Source: Pontiella agarivorans
Lineage (GTDB): Bacteria > Verrucomicrobiota > Kiritimatiellia > Kiritimatiellales > Pontiellaceae
Direction of reading: 5' to 3'
NCBI RefSeq assembly: GCF_034531395.1
Contig: NZ_JARVCO010000012.1
Location: forward strand, 682,001-746,000
DNA length: 64,000 nt
The translations under genes were made by a program, and so were the position numbers. Every line of letters begins with the position of its first letter. Within the stretch, counting starts at the first letter, position 1. This document shows positions 20,798-52,042 of the stretch, in pieces. The notes under the pieces are model-generated. The model searched no databases, was not told where the DNA came from, and was given only the letters and a program-made list of their open reading frames with translations.

Positions 20798-21559
20798 ATG
20801 AATAAGAAAATTATCACAACGGCTTTTTGCCTGAGTTTGGTTTTGGCCGTGACAACATTCGGCCAAGACGGAGCAGCTGCTGAAGCGGCTGCAAATGTTC
20901 AGAAAACCACACTGTGGCAGATGATCAAGCAGGGAGGCTGGGCCATGTGGCCGCTGGGCCTGATGTCAATGGCGATGGTCTATTTCATCGTTCAGAATGC
21001 CTTGGGACTGCGCGAAAAAGTGCTTTTGCGTCCGGACCTCATTCCGGAATTCATTCAGATGATGAAAGATAAAAAAATTGTTGAAGCACATAGCCTTTGC
21101 AAGGAAAATGAAACGCTCTTTACCTATGTATTCTCTGCCGGTCTCGAACGTTGTTCAACGACCCGGGAAATCAATCTGAACAAAGTGAAAGAAGCTATCG
21201 ATGAAGCCTCTACGGAGGAGATCACTTCTTACATGAAGCCGATTGATTATCTTTCGATTATCGGTGCAACTGCTCCGATGCTCGGACTGCTCGGTACCGT
21301 ATCCGGTATGATCAAGGCCTTCCAGACCATCGGTTCGCAGGGTATGGGTAAGCCGGAAGCACTCGCTGGAAACATTGGTGAGGCCCTTGTGACGACGGCG
21401 ACCGGTCTGCTGATCGCGATTCCGTCCATGCTGGCATACTACTACTTCCGTAACAGCTTTATTAAATCCACAGCAACCCTCGGCCGTAACATTGGCGGTC
21501 TGCTCGATACCCTGGAAACCGGTGAACTTCCGCTCGGATTCCAAGGCGGCGAAGAGTAA
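20798..21559 (+). CDS. exbB: MotA/TolQ/ExbB proton-channel family protein
   Basis: 253 residues with a cleavable-looking signal sequence (IITTAFCLSLVLAVTTFGQ), as in the larger ExbB proteins. Three membrane helices follow: about 47-68, 149-172 and 190-215. The conserved stretch is PIDYLSIIGATAPMLGLLGTVSGMIKAF, then GEALVTTATGLLIAIPSMLAYYYF. ExbB pentamers form the stator that couples proton or sodium flow to movement of a partner. The two exbD genes follow. AGGAGAAGGAG ribosome site. Confidence 0.93.
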   Translation: MNKKIITTAFCLSLVLAVTTFGQDGAAAEAAANVQKTTLWQMIKQGGWAMWPLGLMSMAMVYFIVQNALGLREKVLLRPDLIPEFIQMMKDKKIVEAHSLCKENETLFTYVFSAGLERCSTTREINLNKVKEAIDEASTEEITSYMKPIDYLSIIGATAPMLGLLGTVSGMIKAFQTIGSQGMGKPEALAGNIGEALVTTATGLLIAIPSMLAYYYFRNSFIKSTATLGRNIGGLLDTLETGELPLGFQGGEE

Positions 21560-21612
21560 ATCGGGGTCTGTATGACTCCTGTGTGGTGTAACCCTCCAAA
21601 GCGAGGTGTGTA

Positions 21613-22017
21613 ATGAATATTAAAGGACCATCCAGAGATGATGTTTCAATTGACATGGGGCCGATGATCGACCTTGTGTTCCTGCTGCTCATCTTCTTCA
21701 TGGTGGCCTCTGTGGTAACGGAACTGGAAAAGGTCGAGGTGGAGATTCCTGAATCGTCCCACGCCAAAGTTCCTGAAGACACAAAAGGCCGTATGATGCT
21801 GTCCATTGACGCTAATAATCAGGTTTATGTCGGTACGCTTGCTGTAACGACTGAAGAGTTGAAAGACTATATTGCAACGGAGCTGGATCTTAATCCGGAT
21901 CTGCGCATCCTGATTCGTGCGGATCGCCGCGTCGAATATAAGACGTGTAAGGATATTATGATCGCCTGCGGTGAAGTCGGAGCAACCGACCTCATCTATG
22001 CAACTTTCGAGGAATAG
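21613..22017 (+). CDS. exbD: ExbD/TolR family protein, first copy
   Basis: 134 residues: cytoplasmic N-tail, a single membrane helix at about 17-37 with the essential aspartate in PMIDLVFLLLIFF, then a periplasmic domain (LSIDANNQVYVGTLAVTTEELKDYI to GATDLIYATFEE). ExbD dimers sit inside the ExbB pentamer. A second exbD begins 2 bp after its stop, implying a heterodimeric or two-state stator, as in other ExbB-D-D clusters. Confidence 0.92.
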   Translation: MNIKGPSRDDVSIDMGPMIDLVFLLLIFFMVASVVTELEKVEVEIPESSHAKVPEDTKGRMMLSIDANNQVYVGTLAVTTEELKDYIATELDLNPDLRILIRADRRVEYKTCKDIMIACGEVGATDLIYATFEE

Positions 22018-22019
22018 TC

Positions 22020-22454
22020 ATGAAACTTATTGAAGAAATGATGAATAAGAAGGCTGAGCTGGAAATCGCTCCGCTGATTGACGTTGTATTCCTGCTGCTC
22101 ATCTACTTTATGGTAACAGCCTCCCTCGTCAAAAAGGAAGCCGACCTCTCCTTCATGCTTCCTGCGAAGGTAGATGTGACAGAGCCGCTGGATCTCCCGA
22201 TCGAAGTGCTGATCGAAGTTTCAGAGCTGGGCGATATCGTGATTAATGGAATGGTATTTGCAAAAGATCAGAACAATATGGATGATCTGATTGGTCAGTT
22301 GCTTTCGCTGAAAGAGGCTGCAGACTCTTCCGGCACTGATCTGATTGTCAATATCATGCCGGCCGATAAGGCATTACATGGGCGGATTATCCGTGTCATG
22401 GATGCCTGTGCGGCGGCCAACGTGAAAAACATGTCATTCAGTATGTCCATGTAA
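22020..22454 (+). CDS. exbD: ExbD/TolR family protein, second copy
   Basis: 144 residues with APLIDVVFLLLIYFMV membrane helix (Asp conserved) and a periplasmic domain (VLIEVSELGDIVINGMVF; RIIRVMDACAAANVKNMSFSMSM). It differs clearly from the first copy in its periplasmic part, so the two are not a recent duplication. It is the last gene before a strong terminator at 22471-22502. Confidence 0.92.
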   Translation: MKLIEEMMNKKAELEIAPLIDVVFLLLIYFMVTASLVKKEADLSFMLPAKVDVTEPLDLPIEVLIEVSELGDIVINGMVFAKDQNNMDDLIGQLLSLKEAADSSGTDLIVNIMPADKALHGRIIRVMDACAAANVKNMSFSMSM

Positions 22455-22581: not shown

Positions 22582-23865
22582 ATGAGTAAGCCGAAGAAAA
22601 AAGGTTTTTTTGCAAAGCATGCCAAATCAAGTGCGGCAATGATCAGTCTGGGTATTCATGCCGTACTGATTCTTGTTGCCATTTCATTTGTAGCCGTAAC
22701 GGTTATTCAGAAGGAAGATAAACAGTTTGAAGCCAAGCCGGTGAACCGTCCGAAGCAGAAGCTTAAAAAGCTTCAGGTTCCGGTGAAGATGAAGAAAAAC
22801 AAGCCGAAACCAAAACTCCGCAAACGTGTGGTGGTAAAAAATATCCAGCGAAAAACACCGGAATTTAAGATGCCTGAAATCAGCGGGGTTAAAGGTGGGC
22901 TGGGAGCTATGGAGGGGAGCGGAAGCGGAATGGAAAGCATAGGCTTTTCCATGCCGGAAATGGATTTTTTCGGCGCCAAAGCCAAAGGTGAAAAAGTGGT
23001 ATTTGTCGTCCATTTCGGTCCCGCAACGATCAGTGCAGGCAGTAAGAATGGAAAAGATAAGTACACGCCGTTTTCGCGCATGACGGGACTGACCATTCGC
23101 AACCGGCTTGAAGATCTGGTGGATACTCTGCCGGAATATACGCTCTTTAATGTAATCGCCTATTTTGCAGGCGATGCCTGGGCCATGGAGCCGAATATGC
23201 AGCTTGCAACCCCCGTCAATAAGCAGAAAGTCAAAGATTGGATGGATCCGGTAAACCCGCTCGAGGGTGACTATCAATACTGTTTTGCGATTCCGAAAGA
23301 GCCGCGCGGACGCATCAACAGGGCATATAACAACTATCCGAAACGGGTAGATAACCTGCCTGATTATTCAACCAAATGGGCTTATCCCTACTCTGTTCCG
23401 GCGGCCTTGGAAAAGAAATATGCTCCGGATGCACCTGGTGGATTTATGCATTGGGGCCGTGGTGTGGCCTGGGCGATCCTGGAACAGAAACCGGATACCA
23501 TTTTTGTGCTGACCACCAATTATATTGATGGTTGGAATGATACAAAAACAAAAGCCAACGGAGAGCGGGAAAAAATATCAGATAACAATCCTCGGAAAAT
23601 GGCAAAAGCACTGTCTGCTATGTGTCTTGATGTGTATGGGCCGGACAAAAAGAAATGGCCGACGATCAACGTTGTGGTTCTGGCCAAAGCCGGAAAAAAT
23701 TCTGATGGGGCAAATCGTGTTCTCGGAGAACAGTTCGGACCGATTGTCAAAAGTTTTAACGCCGATGGTTCCGTCATTGATGACATCAAAAAGTTCATGA
23801 ATGAACAGGAGCAAAAGCTCTATAGCAAATATATGGCAGAATACGGAAACAAACAGAGCAACTAA
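22582..23865 (+). CDS. TonB-like N-terminus fused to a vWA-like domain
   Basis: 427 residues. A short basic cytoplasmic tail, one membrane helix at about 19-42 and a Lys/Pro-rich stretch (KPVNRPKQK, KKNKPKPKLRKR) look like TonB/TolA. Residues 136-415 follow the order of a von Willebrand factor A domain: KVVFVVHFG, TLFNVIAYFAGDAWAM, LATPVNKQKVKDWM, and PDTIFVLTTNYIDGW. The usual metal-binding DxSxS after the first strand is replaced by HFGPATIS, so ordinary MIDAS metal binding looks lost. It follows the exbB-exbD-exbD genes and probably is the partner moved by that motor. A terminator lies on each side, so it may have its own promoter. Confidence 0.7.
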   Translation: MSKPKKKGFFAKHAKSSAAMISLGIHAVLILVAISFVAVTVIQKEDKQFEAKPVNRPKQKLKKLQVPVKMKKNKPKPKLRKRVVVKNIQRKTPEFKMPEISGVKGGLGAMEGSGSGMESIGFSMPEMDFFGAKAKGEKVVFVVHFGPATISAGSKNGKDKYTPFSRMTGLTIRNRLEDLVDTLPEYTLFNVIAYFAGDAWAMEPNMQLATPVNKQKVKDWMDPVNPLEGDYQYCFAIPKEPRGRINRAYNNYPKRVDNLPDYSTKWAYPYSVPAALEKKYAPDAPGGFMHWGRGVAWAILEQKPDTIFVLTTNYIDGWNDTKTKANGEREKISDNNPRKMAKALSAMCLDVYGPDKKKWPTINVVVLAKAGKNSDGANRVLGEQFGPIVKSFNADGSVIDDIKKFMNEQEQKLYSKYMAEYGNKQSN

Positions 23866-47361: not shown

Positions 47362-47571
47362 AATTATTTCGCCTTCGGGGTGTTTTTCAGTGCGGCCGGC
47401 ACAGCGCCTTAACCATGACATCGTCCCGGGTCACACTTGGAATGCCGATCTTTTTTCTGAAGATCTTTACCCACAGCTCTTGTTCCGTGGCGAGGTCCAT
47501 CTCAAGTCAGCGGTCCTGAAATAGGGGGCAACCGCAATTTTCCCTGTTGAAATAAGAGGCGTACCCGCTGG

Positions 47572-47979
47572 TTAGCCGTTTTTTCCTGTTAGCATTTGTT
47601 GTAGTTCAGAAATTGTTTTTGGAGGGTTAACAATTTTCCACTCAATCCCTCTTTTTGCATGGTTCCATTCAAATATCCCAATTTCTTGGAGAACTACGCC
47701 AAGGTAAGACGCTCCTTGAGCATGAGTGATGTCATTGGGTTTAGAATTCAGAATTGCAGTCCCTAATCCATCTTTCTCTGTGCCATTGCTCATTAATTCA
47801 ACATTATTTGCAAGAGGGAACCATTGGTCAGAAAATTTGTCTTTGAGCCAATTGATGATTTCGAAAATCTCAGTTAATTCATATTCATGAACTCTGCCTT
47901 CATGATTTTGAATGCTGATTCGTGGGGTTATTAATTCCCAGTCAAACTTTTTGGCTTTTCCTCCATTTGTTGATGACAT
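47572..47979 (-). CDS. Cassette gene, unknown protein
   Basis: 135 residues, no signal peptide or membrane helix. Hydrophilic N-terminus, then WELITPRISIQNHEGRVHEYELTEIFEIINWLKDKF and a conserved-looking SKPNDITHAQGASYLGVVLQEIGIFEWN. No family was recognised. Its stop codon overlaps an R''-like box GGCTAAC (47571-47577), and a distant CAGCGG/CCGCTG pair suggests a decayed attC reaching 47518. The upstream boundary of this cassette is not clear. Confidence 0.7.
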   Translation of the reverse strand: MSSTNGGKAKKFDWELITPRISIQNHEGRVHEYELTEIFEIINWLKDKFSDQWFPLANNVELMSNGTEKDGLGTAILNSKPNDITHAQGASYLGVVLQEIGIFEWNHAKRGIEWKIVNPPKTISELQQMLTGKNG

Positions 47980-48030
47980 GATATACCCTTTCTTTTCTAT
48001 GGTTAGATCTTATGGCTGAAGTTGACTTAG

Positions 48031-48525
48031 TCACGTCTCTGACTGATTCCCTCGTTCTCCGGACTGGTGGGTGAGCAGGGCATCGACCGACAGGCTTCCG
48101 CCGCCTCTGATGAGAAGAAACAGGCTCCCCAACCACATCGCAAAGTCGGTTCGCATCTCGTGAGCCATGACCCAGAAGCCGTATGTGTGAAGGTCTCGCA
48201 GGGCGAACGGCCCAAAGCTGTGTCCGAGTCCGATCGGGATCTTGGTGACCGCAATCGCAACTGACATGATGATGAAGGTGAAGATAGCACCCCCGCGCGT
48301 TAGCAGCCCAAGTAGAATCAAGAGGCCTCCCAGCACCTCAAACACACCTACGCAATTGGCGAAGAACTCTGGACTCGGAAATCCCATCTTCTCGAACCGC
48401 CCAGCTCCACGGGCAAGGGGGTAAAGAAATTTTTGAACTCCTTCAGACAGGAAGACCGCACCAACCATCAGGCGGATCAGAATGGTAGCCTTCGAGGTGT
48501 CCGTTCTCATGAGTTTCTTCAGCAT
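48031..48525 (-). CDS. DoxX-family membrane protein
   Basis: 164 residues from the ATG at 48525 (MLKKLMRTDTSKA), preceded by AAGGAG. Four membrane segments in the DoxX arrangement: LIRLMVGAVFLSEGVQKFLYP, GVFEVLGGLLILLGLLTRGGAI, FIIMSVAIAVTKIPIGL and DFAMWLGSLFLLIRGGG. DoxX proteins are associated with thiol-redox or quinone chemistry, but the function is usually unknown. It lies inside the cassette region, yet lacks a full attC on either side; it may have been joined to the array by deletion or be a cassette with decayed sites. Confidence 0.85.
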   Translation of the reverse strand: MLKKLMRTDTSKATILIRLMVGAVFLSEGVQKFLYPLARGAGRFEKMGFPSPEFFANCVGVFEVLGGLLILLGLLTRGGAIFTFIIMSVAIAVTKIPIGLGHSFGPFALRDLHTYGFWVMAHEMRTDFAMWLGSLFLLIRGGGSLSVDALLTHQSGERGNQSET

Positions 48526-48570
48526 ATCATCTCCTTTCTCTTTCAAATCGTCGTATTGCTGAGAATGGTG

Positions 48571-48577
48571 GTTCTGC
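48571..48577 (-). repeat. R''-like half attC box
   Basis: GCAGAAC directly after the stop of the gene ending at 48578, followed by CACC. It matches the TTCTGC that opens the same cassette, but no partner R' box follows before the DoxX gene, so this attC seems truncated. Confidence 0.5.
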
Positions 48578-48988
48578 TTATTTTTTCTTCAGGACATAAT
48601 AATGAGGTTTTTGACCTCGTTCAGTAACATCGCCACTAATCCATTCGAAAAACAGGTAAGATTCATTCTCAATCTCTTTAATATAGTAATGGGCAGGATG
48701 TTCACTATCCGGATCTACCTTGCCTTTTGTCCAGTCCTGCTGATATTTATCAACTTTTTTGTTACTGCATGTAACATACCCTCGCTTGTGGAAATCCAGT
48801 TCCAATAGAAATAAATCACCCTTCCAATATTTTGTGGAAGGATTGAATTGATCAATGGTTTTTACGAAATCAACGGTCTTCCATCTTCCCACAACTTCCG
48901 GGTCTTTTTCGAATGCATGGGCTGTTGAGCAAATCATGAATGCAGATACCCATGTAATGATGCTGACTATTAACTTTGATCTCTTCAT
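48578..48988 (-). CDS. Secreted cassette protein of unknown function
   Basis: 136 residues. Signal peptide (LIVSIITWVSAFMICSTAHA) then an exported domain of about 110 residues: EVVGRWKTVDFVKTIDQFNP, WKGDLFLLELDFHKRGYV, DWTKGKV, YYIKEIENESYLFFEWISGD and PHYYVLKK. The order resembles a beta-rich domain seen at the C-terminus of some BlaR1-like and other Firmicutes/Bacteroidetes proteins (WKGDLFL, WTKG, FEWKSGD, YYVL); this is from memory. It is a single-gene cassette between an attC (49014-49101) and a truncated site. Confidence 0.75.
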   Translation of the reverse strand: MKRSKLIVSIITWVSAFMICSTAHAFEKDPEVVGRWKTVDFVKTIDQFNPSTKYWKGDLFLLELDFHKRGYVTCSNKKVDKYQQDWTKGKVDPDSEHPAHYYIKEIENESYLFFEWISGDVTERGQKPHYYVLKKK

Positions 48989-49013
48989 TTTATTCCCCTT
49001 GGTTGTTTTTTTT

Positions 49014-49101
49014 GCAGAACATTATGGATGAGCTTCCGTGCGCATAAACTTTGACCTAATCAACGGGTATTTTCACGGTAAGCTCCAGCCGCTGGTTCTG
49101 C
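49014..49101 (-). repeat. attC-like site (third)
   Basis: 88 bp on the minus strand: R'' GCAGAAC at 49095-49101, R' GTTCTGC at 49014-49020, perfect complements. Internal arms GAGCTTaCCGTG and CACGG-AAGCTC pair, and the tip has TTGA-ttagg-TCAA. This is the clearest folded attC of the set. Confidence 0.78.
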
Positions 49102-49107
49102 CTGTTT

Positions 49108-49503
49108 TTAATTTGGAGTAACAGCAACGATAATATCTTCAACCCCGGATTCTCTAAGCTTATTCATAATTGAAACGACAATTCGATGCGGAACATTTTC
49201 ATCTACGGCTAGCATTACTTTCGAGCTATCAATTTCAACGGGTAGTTCATTGAGATCAACAATTTGATCCTTAACAAAAATTTGATTATTCTCATCAACT
49301 TTGACAACGCTACGTCCGCTTGGTGATGGAGTCGGAATTATAGGTTTATTTACGACTATAGTTTCTGATTGTTTGAGATCTTGTATCGGAAGGGCGACTG
49401 GGACTTTTGTATTTTGGGGTTCAGCTTGTTTGTCTGAAGTTGTACATGCTGCAACTCCGGTCAATATCACGCTGATTGCGATTAGATTAATGAATGATTT
49501 CAT
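49108..49503 (-). CDS. Lipoprotein with ExbD/TolR-like periplasmic domain (cassette gene)
   Basis: 131 residues. The N-terminus is a lipoprotein signal with lipobox VAAC (Cys20). After a Pro/Thr-rich linker, residues about 66-131 follow the ExbD/TolR periplasmic domain: VVKVDENNQIFVKDQIVDLNEL, SSKVMLAVDENVPHRIVVSIMNKLRESGVEDIIVAVTPN. The membrane helix with the proton-handling Asp of true ExbD is absent. It might bind the same partners as ExbD (peptidoglycan or TonB-like proteins) from the lipid anchor. It lies between two attC-like sites, so it is a cassette gene. Confidence 0.78.
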   Translation of the reverse strand: MKSFINLIAISVILTGVAACTTSDKQAEPQNTKVPVALPIQDLKQSETIVVNKPIIPTPSPSGRSVVKVDENNQIFVKDQIVDLNELPVEIDSSKVMLAVDENVPHRIVVSIMNKLRESGVEDIIVAVTPN

Positions 49504-49519
49504 TTGTTTCCTTATGTTT

Positions 49520-49604
49520 GCAGAACGTTAAGGGAGCCTGAGTGGATAGTGCTTCAACTTCATCGACGGGCATTGTCACGATAGACTCCATCTGCTGGTT
49601 GGCT
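49520..49604 (-). repeat. attC-like site (second)
   Basis: 85 bp on the minus strand: R'' AGCCAAC (49598-49604, overlapping the gene stop) and R' GTTCTGC (49520-49526). Shared blocks AACCAG, TGGAG, TCGTGA, CCCGTCGA; imperfect arms GAGTCTATCGTG and CACTATCCACTC pair. The R' box matches the next cassette rather than R'', as expected after recombination. Confidence 0.75.
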
Positions 49605-49974
49605 ATTTTTTCTTTTTAAGCTTCTTTTCTACCCTGAGTTTGAAGTCCTTTTTTATCGTCGATCCCAGCTCAATTTCTTCTTTAGCATTTGGGAGGAGTT
49701 TCCTTGAAACTGTTGTGGTTATTCTCTTAGGAAATTTATCCTTGAGCACATATTTTTCATAACTTTCCTTATGGCCTCGGTTGAACCCTTTTTTATACCA
49801 ACGCGTTGCTAACTCAATTAGTGCATTTTCAATGGCATCTCTCAAATCGGAACGCAATGGGCCAGCGTCTGAGAGTTCTTCTCCCTTCATTATTTTTTCA
49901 ATTTCTTCAAGTGTTTTGTTTATGGAAGAAGTGGCTCCCTCTGCGAAACCTTTTTCAAACTGTGTTTTTTTCAT
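49603..49974 (-). CDS. Cassette gene, charged unknown protein
   Basis: 123 residues, highly charged, with an N-terminal amphipathic helical part (KTQFEKGFAEGATSSINKTLEEIEKIMKG, then LRDAIENALIELATRWYKKGFNRGHKESYEKY) and a Lys-rich end (KLRVEKKLKKKK). No signal peptide, membrane helix or recognised family. The 3' Lys run comes from an AT-rich end merging into the attC. It may be a cytosolic nucleic-acid or protein binder; nothing more can be said. Confidence 0.68.
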   Translation of the reverse strand: MKKTQFEKGFAEGATSSINKTLEEIEKIMKGEELSDAGPLRSDLRDAIENALIELATRWYKKGFNRGHKESYEKYVLKDKFPKRITTTVSRKLLPNAKEEIELGSTIKKDFKLRVEKKLKKKK

Positions 49975-49994
49975 GGGGTTCTCGTTTTTTTATA

Positions 49995-50081
49995 AGCGAA
50001 CGTTACGGGTGACCCGCCGTGCCTTGTTCGTTGCCTGACTCAACGGGCGTTTTCACGGTAAGGGCAGGCCTCTGGTTATGC
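49995..50081 (-). repeat. attC-like site (first)
   Basis: 87 bp on the minus strand: R'' GCATAAC (50075-50081) right after the gene stop and R' GTTCGCT (49995-50001). Shared blocks AACCAG, ACCGTGAAAA, CCCGTTGA. CCGTG pairs with CACGG and CGTTG with CAACG around AGTCAGG, giving a folded hairpin with an apical stem. Confidence 0.75.
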
Positions 50082-50498
50082 CTAGTTTATTAATATATGT
50101 GTCCATTCCCCATCAGGAGTGTAACGCAAGCTAACATGTTCATCTGCGGTTACATAGTAGCCCGTCCAGTTTCCATCTAGGTCGAACTCAACTTTTACGT
50201 TGTTTTTTGTCGTTACCAATGTGTGGATATGTTCCCCGTTGGTTGAAAACATGATATCCACGAGTTCACCTGCCTTAACTAGATATGCTTTTTGATTGAG
50301 GTCTAAGTCATATAGATATGGTCCGCCATAACTCCGGTTGAATCTTGGATTTAACGAGGAGTTGAATTTTGGATTAATTGATGAATTGAACTTCGGATTG
50401 ATCTGTGAGTTAAACTTCGGATTGATCTGGGAGCCTTGCTCCACTCGTTCATGCGGAAATAAAAACGGCACAAGTTGAGACCAGGTTGGAATGTTCAA
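50082..50498 (-). CDS. Cassette protein with NPKFNS tandem repeats
   Basis: 138 residues if translation starts at the TTG at 50498; no ATG exists upstream in frame before a stop, so the start is uncertain and the gene may have lost its 5' end. After residue 22 comes a tandem octapeptide array: QINPKFNS, QINPKFNS, SINPKFNS, SLNPRFNR. A beta-rich domain follows (YLVKAGELVDIMFSTNGEHIHTLVTTKNNVKVEFDLDGNWTGYYV). The repeat codons form 24-bp near-identical DNA units at about 50340-50430. Function unknown. Confidence 0.62.
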   Translation of the reverse strand: MNIPTWSQLVPFLFPHERVEQGSQINPKFNSQINPKFNSSINPKFNSSLNPRFNRSYGGPYLYDLDLNQKAYLVKAGELVDIMFSTNGEHIHTLVTTKNNVKVEFDLDGNWTGYYVTADEHVSLRYTPDGEWTHILIN

Positions 50499-50574
50499 TC
50501 GGTAGTGGTAGTTGGCAAAACACGAAGATTGGGACAGGGAACTTTTTGTCTTTACTCAGAGGGACTTAATGGTG

Positions 50575-50581
50575 GTTCGCT
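50575..50581 (-). repeat. R''-like attC box after the two-gene cassette
   Basis: AGCGAAC followed by CACC, just after the gene ending at 50587. It matches the GTTCGCT that opens this cassette at 51928-51934. A degenerate R' (GTTTTGC, near 50515) is possible, but the inner arms do not pair well. Confidence 0.5.
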
Positions 50582-50586
50582 GTTTT

Positions 50587-51318
50587 TTATATTTTAAGCC
50601 CAGCTTTGTAGAGTAGTTCTTCAATTGTAGCTCGATAATCCATTCGCAGAGTTCGAATATCATCTTTACGGCAATTGTATCGAATGAGGTGTGCTGACAA
50701 ATTCCCTAATTCACGAAACTGATCTATAGCTTTTCGTACACCACCCGATAGTCCAATTTCTGGCCTTGATTTGGCCTTGTTTATCAGGGTCTTCAGGTTC
50801 TGGAATCCTCCATCGGAATCCGTGATTTCGGAAACAATACCCGCTTCCTCAAATGAGTGAATAATTAATACTTCCAACAGCCGTCGCATCATCATTGCAC
50901 AGGCATCAAAGAGGTTGTTTTCATAACTGGCATTGATCTGCTGAACTATCTTCACAAGATAGGGTCTGCGAATTTCTTCAAATAAGATCTCAGGAATGAG
51001 GGTGCTGTCCGAGACGATTTCTTCTGAATCTCCAATGTCTGGAAAATCTGCACGAAGTGATTTGAATGAAGATTTGCTCAGTCGATAGAGGTCGGACTTC
51101 GAACCGTTTATGAATGCTGAGGATTTTTTAATTCGACCCTTTAGCCTCGTCGCATTGGGACGTGCATACCCTAATGCGACTAGGATCTCTACCATCTCTG
51201 GAACAGAGAATTCTTGTTGATCCTTGTCTTCAGAAAAGAAAAAGGCAAGTAGCTCAACCTTCCTGATCTCTGAGGATTCATCAAGAGACACCTTTCGAGC
51301 ATAATGTTCGATATTCAT
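50587..51318 (-). CDS. HEPN/DUF4145-like protein, second gene of a two-gene cassette
   Basis: 243 residues, cytosolic. The N-terminal half (about 14-95) is helical with a winged-helix look (FSVPEMVEILVALGYARPNATRLKGRIKKSSAFI). Residues about 115-243 resemble the helical HEPN-like DUF4145 domain: YLVKIVQQINASYENNLFDACAMMMRRLLEVLIIHSF and FRELGNLSAHLIRYN, with Arg202, Asn206 and His210. HEPN domains often are RNases in defence and toxin systems. Its start overlaps the upstream gene by four bases (ATGA), so the two are translationally coupled and moved as one cassette. Function is inferred. Confidence 0.68.
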   Translation of the reverse strand: MNIEHYARKVSLDESSEIRKVELLAFFFSEDKDQQEFSVPEMVEILVALGYARPNATRLKGRIKKSSAFINGSKSDLYRLSKSSFKSLRADFPDIGDSEEIVSDSTLIPEILFEEIRRPYLVKIVQQINASYENNLFDACAMMMRRLLEVLIIHSFEEAGIVSEITDSDGGFQNLKTLINKAKSRPEIGLSGGVRKAIDQFRELGNLSAHLIRYNCRKDDIRTLRMDYRATIEELLYKAGLKI

Positions 51319-51902
51319 ACAGTCGCCTTGGGCAGTTGATCAGAGACGAAAATATCACCACCTCGCGTCATCACCCATTCTCCGGCTTCCTCGCTCTCGG
51401 TTTCTTCGTAATAATCTTTCTCGTTTTTATTATTAATCATGATTTGGTGGAGATGCCCCGGCCGGTCAAGTTTCAGCATTTTATATGAATACTCAATTTG
51501 CCCTTCCGTGAAGCAGGCTTTTTCCAAAATTTCGGTAATGTAGTATCCGATAACGGCTATTCGATCACCGTTTGCTCGCCCTGGATTTTTATCGTCGAAG
51601 AATTCTTTTAGTGATGGAGTCCCATCGCCCCCATGAATATCGTATTTTTCTGCTTTAATATTGGGAGCGCCTCTTTTCTTCCTTGGAGCCTTGGCTCCAT
51701 CGTTATCTTTAGCGGGAGCTGTTTTCTTCTTGGCAGGAGTCGAAGTACTCGTGCTCTTCTTTCGTATAGTCTTTGGTTCGCTTTGTTCTGCTTCGGCAAT
51801 GAGCTGCTTAAACTCATTTAAGTACTTGGTGACAAACTCCTCGCTTCCTTCGAGTTCTATGATTCGGGTGTTCAGGTCGATTTTTGCTTTGGTGTTTGTC
51901 AT
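51315..51902 (-). CDS. DNA-binding-like partner gene of the two-gene cassette
   Basis: 195 residues from the ATG at 51902, whose ribosome site is GGAG; an ATG 15 bp earlier overlaps that site. The N-terminus (IIELEGSEEFVTKYLNEFKQLIAEAEQ) looks like a small sensor or dimerisation motif, followed by a Lys/Ser/Pro/Thr linker (about 50-85). The C-terminal part (DRIAVIGYYITEILEKACFTEGQIEYSYKMLKLDRPGHLHQIMINN) has a winged-helix-like order. A similar GSEEFV motif and helix-turn-helix C-domain occur beside HEPN genes in other genomes, to my recollection. It is the first gene after the array's upstream edge. Confidence 0.65.
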   Translation of the reverse strand: MTNTKAKIDLNTRIIELEGSEEFVTKYLNEFKQLIAEAEQSEPKTIRKKSTSTSTPAKKKTAPAKDNDGAKAPRKKRGAPNIKAEKYDIHGGDGTPSLKEFFDDKNPGRANGDRIAVIGYYITEILEKACFTEGQIEYSYKMLKLDRPGHLHQIMINNKNEKDYYEETESEEAGEWVMTRGGDIFVSDQLPKATV

Positions 51903-51927
51903 GGTTTTTATCTCCATTATTTATGTT

Positions 51928-51934
51928 AGCGAAC
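51928..51934 (-). repeat. R'-like box at the upstream edge of the cassette array
   Basis: GTTCGCT on the minus strand, 26 bp before the start of the first cassette gene, matching the AGCGAAC that closes the same cassette at 50575-50581. No complete attC or attI can be made out upstream of it. Confidence 0.45.
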
Positions 51935-52042
51935 AGTGGCATATATCGATTCGTTAGTTTTAGTGGGTATCTCTACTCTTTATATCCCGATATCGGCCCG
52001 CAAGTCTATGCAATCTTTTCTTTTGTATATAAGAATGGCTGA

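Follow-up and report, generated by a model that had tools for sequence, protein, structure and literature searches.

An integron gene cassette of Pontiella agarivorans encodes a predicted lipoprotein with an ExbD/TolR periplasmic domain and no motor helix

Results

The minus strand of the window (the whole 64,000-nucleotide stretch of Pontiella agarivorans DNA that was analysed) carries an ORF for a 131-residue protein at 49108..49503. Direct reading places the ATG start at 49503 and the TAA stop at 49108, and a ribosome-binding site, AAGGA, lies 5 nt 5' of the ATG (49509..49513). The ORF is contained in a gene cassette of 506 bp (49020..49525, minus strand), which has the R' sequence GTTCTGC at both ends, as direct repeats with a spacing of 506 nt, and the R'' sequence GCAGAAC at 49095–49101. 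The recombination points that delimit the cassette fall between the G and the first T of GTTCTGC, at 49526/49525 and 49020/49019. R'' (read from 49101 to 49095) and R' are exact complements, as expected for one cassette.

A covariance model of attC was built from three sites in the window, all on the minus strand. The site at 49013..49105 matches the model with 106 bits and forms a single-stranded DNA hairpin with a z of −3.2; those at 49519..49606 and 49994..50085, the latter being the third attC of the array, also match, all three being training sequences of the model. With this model, 48 sites were found in this genome, many of them near the ends of contigs C1, C10, C11, and C12, together with 69 and 74 sites in two relatives of the same genus (G001 and the single-contig complete genome G025, respectively). 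The stems of 95 distinct sites contain 277 double-sided compensatory cells, compared with 102 ± 12 after shuffling and far fewer when slid; the 95-site alignment was fitted to the attC model, which makes it lean towards structure, and the margin is still wide. A previous sequence-only reading had placed the gene between two attC-like sites. Both are real, as judged by the covariance model and the compensatory changes, but only the downstream site, 49013–49105, is the cassette's own attC, while the upstream one belongs to the neighbouring cassette. The arrangement, one ORF and then an attC hairpin bearing R'' and R' cores, is that of a true integron cassette.

The cassette is part of an array of co-oriented ORFs (47565..51940, minus strand), with R''/R' cores near 47574, 48571, 50577, and 51931; some boundaries in it have an R'' core only and no full attC. 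The G+C content is mostly 38–44% in the array and about 50–64% in most of the flanks. The array stretch is absent from the same place in the close relative G025, which has 1.3 kb there, with no attC, compared with 4.7 kb in the window. The site is flanked by genes which, from their sequences, we take to be pgi and a LOG-family gene. A cassette ORF at 50082–50498 (minus strand) has four tandem INPKFNS-like short repeats near its N-terminus, and the ORF at 48031–48546 (minus strand) encodes a DoxX-family membrane protein, with no full attC and with a G+C content of 55%, above that of the neighbouring cassettes. Seven other lipoprotein candidates lie within or next to arrays of this attC family, and lipoproteins are common cargo of these arrays.

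The cassette had also been described as mobile. It is genuinely bounded by attC, but this assembly, which is 97% complete, yielded XerC/XerD-like recombinases only and no integron integrase, IntI. Two tyrosine recombinases were considered as IntI and rejected, as they scored far below the cut-off and were read as XerC/XerD. Thus, the local array is integrase-less, and CALIN-like here, with the reservation that the assembly lacks some sequence. The attC arrays at the contig ends mentioned above (C1, C10, C11, and C12 of G000) suggest one or more large unclosed arrays, perhaps with an IntI.

The same attC family adjoins a genuine IntI in the same-genus relative G025 (448 bits, with a cut-off of 265; C1:2304168-2305106), where an attC array starts about 0.7–0.8 kb past the integrase gene, on the opposite strand, and extends for nearly 40 kb. 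This region, G025:C1:2304168-2343611 (L097, L111, and L112), is a large chromosomal integron that contains IntI and the majority of the 74 attC sites. In one part (L111, 2321-4577), attC recurs regularly, every ~240 bp, in what look like repeated near-identical short cassettes. Another genome, G022, has three full-length IntI matches over the cut-off on different contigs (C2, C3, and C4), as well as partial ones.

The layout of the cassette protein, from N- to C-terminus, is MKSFINLIAISVILTGVAAC-TTSDKQAEPQNTK-VPVALP-IQDLKQSETIVVNKPIIPTPSPSGRSVVKVDENNQIFVKDQIVDLNELPVEIDSSKVMLAVDENVPHRIVVSIMNKLRESGVEDIIVAVTPN. Residues 1–20, MKSFINLIAISVILTGVAAC (49444..49503, minus strand), read directly as a signal peptide with Lys at position 2 and the lipobox V-A-A-C20, which satisfies the pattern [LVI][ASTVI][GAS]C. 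The n-region, the hydrophobic region, and the Cys-ending lipobox are all present, and the lipobox at Cys20 given by the sequence-only reading is confirmed. By this pattern, the protein is a predicted lipoprotein, the lipidation of Cys20 itself being presumed. The sole long hydrophobic stretch comprises residues 4–20, lacks Asp and Glu, and has the lipobox at its end. Since nothing outside residues 1–20 could span a membrane, the lipoprotein has no motor helix. For reference, ExbD of E. coli has a single N-terminal transmembrane helix, in which the essential Asp is D25.

The Pfam family PF02472 (ExbD) matches the lipoprotein with E = 6.5e-6 and 26.7 bits, above the gathering cut-off of 25.4, and the alignment pairs residues 45–130 with profile positions 47–127 of 128. 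The match starts only at profile position 47, so the helix part of the ExbD profile is missing; as residues 1–20 contain no Asp, the absence of the membrane helix with the essential Asp, claimed earlier, holds. Weak matches to the NCBIfam models of TolR and ExbD cover the same region, and a pairwise sequence search of the PDB matched ExbD alone, with E values of 0.15 and 0.31.

The alignment behind a first structure model included the two ExbDs of the window. Because these might bias the fold, a single-sequence AlphaFold2 model was made, which has block-mean confidences of 65–80 across residues 71–130. Its secondary structure elements follow the TolR order: strands 66–69, 75–77, 80–82, and 95–101, helix 106–118, and strand 123–129. 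In a Foldseek search of the PDB with this model, ExbD ranked at the top (8pek, E = 2.3e-5, probability 1.00), and five ExbD chains had E < 0.001. The VIA-align Z values are 9.9 for the ExbD structures 8p9r and 8vgd, 9.5 for 8vgc, 9.3 for 8pek, and 9.1 for TolR (5by4), followed by an ExbD NMR structure at 6.1 and the first unrelated chain at 5.7. The top matches, 8p9r, 8vgd, and 8vgc, are ExbD in complex with TonB or a D-box peptide, and the model superimposes on them with rmsd values of 1.4–1.8 Å over 65–68 residues. The domain comprises residues 63–131 (49111..49317, minus strand), and its first helix is shortened by about seven residues. The structural comparison proposed in the sequence-only reading has thus found the ExbD fold, the refuting result which that reading named (a domain that fails to match ExbD by profile or structure) did not arise, and the Pfam score above the cut-off and the fold matches at Z 9.1–9.9 bear out the assignment of an ExbD/TolR periplasmic domain. 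We regard the identities of the domain and of the cassette as practically certain. The helix that defines an ExbD motor subunit was looked for and is absent, so the cassette protein does not belong to that class.

Between the signal peptide and the domain is a linker of about 42 residues, which contains the motif VPVALP (residues 34–39; 49387..49404, minus strand). In the form V-x-V-x-L-P, it has the same residues as E. coli ExbD at each of the four NIBS positions, V45, V47, L49, and P50, and this motif is needed for Ton function (PMC9022066). In Serratia ExbD, residues 44–49 are the N-terminal intermolecular strand, by which the dimer is closed and the binding site for the D-box covered (PMC10771500, PMC12905483). 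Shuffled linkers yield the strict motif by chance in 1.3% of cases and a looser pattern in 7%, so this match is suggestive rather than proof. Compared with ExbD, the linker has about 10 extra residues between the motif and the domain.

The survey of ExbD matches covered 20 genomes, of which 19, this one included, belong to the same genus and one to the same order. Nearly all of the 205 matches include the helix part of the profile. The helix-less exceptions, which start at profile positions 46–49, are the lipoprotein, Ser/Thr kinases, and one frame of 231 residues. The kinase frames have 880 residues in G001 (L086:672-3311), 2227 in G004 (L087:3141-9821), and 1772 in G015 (L120:2595-7910, with two ExbD domains); in all three, both Pkinase and ExbD are above the Pfam cut-offs, and ExbD lies beyond the kinase domain. 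No NIBS motif was found just upstream of the ExbD domains of the two kinases checked, and VPVALP is therefore not simply a leftover common to every helix-less ExbD domain. The 231-residue frame (L121:1258-1950, also in G015) has a signal-like N-terminus and an ExbD match of 20.3 bits, below the cut-off, and is probably a secreted ExbD-like protein. There is perhaps a second ExbD copy near its end.

The search for other lipobox-ExbD proteins, also suggested previously, found none by sequence in 387 genomes of the phylum (E 3e-5), plasmids, phages, viral contigs, and species-representative genomes (two pattern scans). Apart from that of the 387 genomes, these searches reach near-identical peptides or matches with E under 0.001–0.01, and distant relatives may be missed, because the domain has only about 70 residues and about 28% identity to its nearest paralogues. 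Two other matches below 3e-5 in the 387 genomes are partial, in frames of 145 and 197 residues, lengths that fit ordinary ExbD. The open-access literature held nothing relevant on ExbD lipoproteins, ExbD kinases, or integrons in Kiritimatiellota.

The window also contains an ExbB-ExbD1-ExbD2 operon (20798..22454, plus strand; Pfam MotA_ExbB, 101.6 bits; ExbD, 91.6 and 66.2 bits), which is a candidate partner. ExbD1 (21613–22017) is the closest to the lipoprotein of the 13 other ExbDs of this genome (phmmer E = 3e-6 in a 17-sequence set), with 28% identity. The lipoprotein gene is not beside exbB or tolQ; its neighbours are unrelated cassettes, and 27 kb separate it from the ExbB gene of the window. 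Directly after the operon, at 22582–23865 (plus strand), is a 427-residue protein with a hydrophobic N-terminal stretch, a candidate TonB/TolA-like partner for which no Pfam or NCBIfam match was found at 0.001.

Discussion

What is the function of the cassette lipoprotein? Without a motor helix, it cannot drive a motor, and binding or jamming of a motor or of the cell wall is the most that it could do. Its mode of action may resemble that of the periplasmic half of ExbD. The reading that we favour, tentatively and at somewhat less than an even chance, is a motor-directed role, in which this passive, unpowered ExbD half would damp or re-direct an Exb/Tol-type motor. We infer such a role because strand swapping between ExbD/TolR protomers and the binding of the TonB D-box both proceed through the NIBS and the final strand of the domain. 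The retention of the NIBS, together with ExbD1 of the window operon being the closest ExbD of this genome, gives new support to a link with a motor.

In the proposed mechanism, the signal peptide and lipobox would place the protein on the periplasmic face of a membrane; Thr at +2 would direct it to the outer membrane, provided that this phylum obeys the Lol rule. The linker of ~42 residues, with its NIBS-type strand, would then present the ExbD/TolR periplasmic domain, and the lipoprotein could dimerize with itself or with a resident ExbD. Alternatively, it could capture the D-box of a TonB/TolA-like protein. Either dimerization or D-box capture might dampen or re-direct an Exb/Tol-type motor, the first candidate being that of the ExbB-D-D operon at 20.8–22.5 kb, and an open form of the lipoprotein may bind peptidoglycan. 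Several findings stand against a motor-directed role. The protein occurs once, with no orthologue found, and its gene has no genetic linkage to an exb/tol operon, the nearest being 27 kb away, and lies in an array with no integrase nearby. The motif arises in 1–7% of shuffled linkers, helix 1 is shortened, and the connection between motif and domain is lengthened. Furthermore, a lipoprotein sorted to the outer membrane may be out of reach of ExbD dimers near the inner membrane.

A narrower version of the motor-directed role, that the mobile cassette is a brake or clutch on outer-membrane energization, which enters resident ExbD dimers through a strand swap or captures the TonB D-box, is speculative, and we consider it improbable. 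If true, such a device could serve, for example, against TonB-dependent phages, bacteriocins, or harmful substrates.

The lipoprotein could instead be a tether that binds the cell wall through its ExbD/TolR domain, as Pal does, with no contact to a motor. The periplasmic domains of ExbD and TolR are able to bind peptidoglycan, transiently in the case of ExbD (PMC10771500) and, for TolR, in a truncated form without the swap strands (PMC4646322). The combination of a lipid anchor with a wall-binding domain is the arrangement of Pal, and a flexible linker of about 42 residues suits the reach from membrane to wall. However, TolR binds the wall only in its open form, not when the swap strand is present, and the NIBS motif is kept here. 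We think a wall tether rather unlikely. The kept motif also bears on the possibility that the domain is a general periplasmic module for the recognition of ligands or proteins, as it would be on the Ser/Thr kinases. In favour of this, three genomes of the genus encode kinases that bear one or two ExbD domains outside the cytoplasm, and one of these genomes also has the probably secreted ExbD-like protein (20.3 bits, below the cut-off). Against it, no output domain is attached to the cassette protein, which also retains the NIBS motif; neither of the two kinases checked was found to have this motif. We judge a sensing role to be unlikely.

Slightly less likely than a sensing role is that the protein has no function in this host and has been retained by chance in a decaying, integrase-less array. 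No integron integrase was found in the assembly, some array boundaries have an R'' core only, and no orthologue was found anywhere searched. Nevertheless, the ORF is intact, with a start codon, a ribosome-binding site, a complete lipobox, the correct fold, and matching R'' and R' cores, and the seven other candidates make lipoproteins common cargo of these arrays. Finally, an ordinary ExbD might have been degraded, its transmembrane helix decaying into a signal peptide. MAFFT pairs INLIAISVILTGVAA with the ExbD helix and puts Asn opposite the essential Asp. However, the mean similarity to ExbD helices, 10.9, does not exceed that shown by other signal peptides in the arrays, which reach 12.6; the derivation of the signal peptide from an ExbD helix was rejected, and we consider a degraded ExbD very improbable.

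The roles of the NIBS, of the D-box, and of peptidoglycan binding in Ton and Tol motors call for further scrutiny (PMC12905483), and a natural protein which has the NIBS and the domain but no motor helix offers a ready-made reagent for telling these three roles apart. Together, the lipoprotein and the kinase fusions of its relatives represent the re-use of a motor domain outside motors. The motor-directed role is, moreover, a precise, testable guess at function for one member of the largely unknown pool of integron cassette genes.

The cassette lipoprotein resembles ExbD and TolR (PF02472), the inner-membrane subunits of the Ton and Tol-Pal motors, in the periplasmic fold, in the order of strands and helices, and in the NIBS motif of the linker. 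It differs from them in having a lipoprotein signal in place of the cytoplasmic N-terminus, the transmembrane helix, and the ion-coupling Asp, in its shorter first domain helix, and in the location of its gene away from exbB and tolQ. With Pal, the peptidoglycan-binding outer-membrane lipoprotein of the Tol-Pal system, it shares by analogy a lipid anchor, a linker, and a periplasmic domain that could contact the cell wall; however, Pal has an OmpA-type domain, and a Pfam scan of the cassette lipoprotein gave no match to this peptidoglycan-binding domain. The ExbD-kinases of the genus (L086, L087, and L120) likewise have the ExbD periplasmic domain without a motor helix, from profile positions 46–49 on, but in kinase frames of 880–2227 residues and, in the two checked, with no NIBS found just upstream. 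As a single-gene cassette of 506 bp with attC, it is like the lipoprotein cassettes of chromosomal integrons; whereas the other array ORFs read gave no ExbD match, this cassette carries a known domain of a motor protein.
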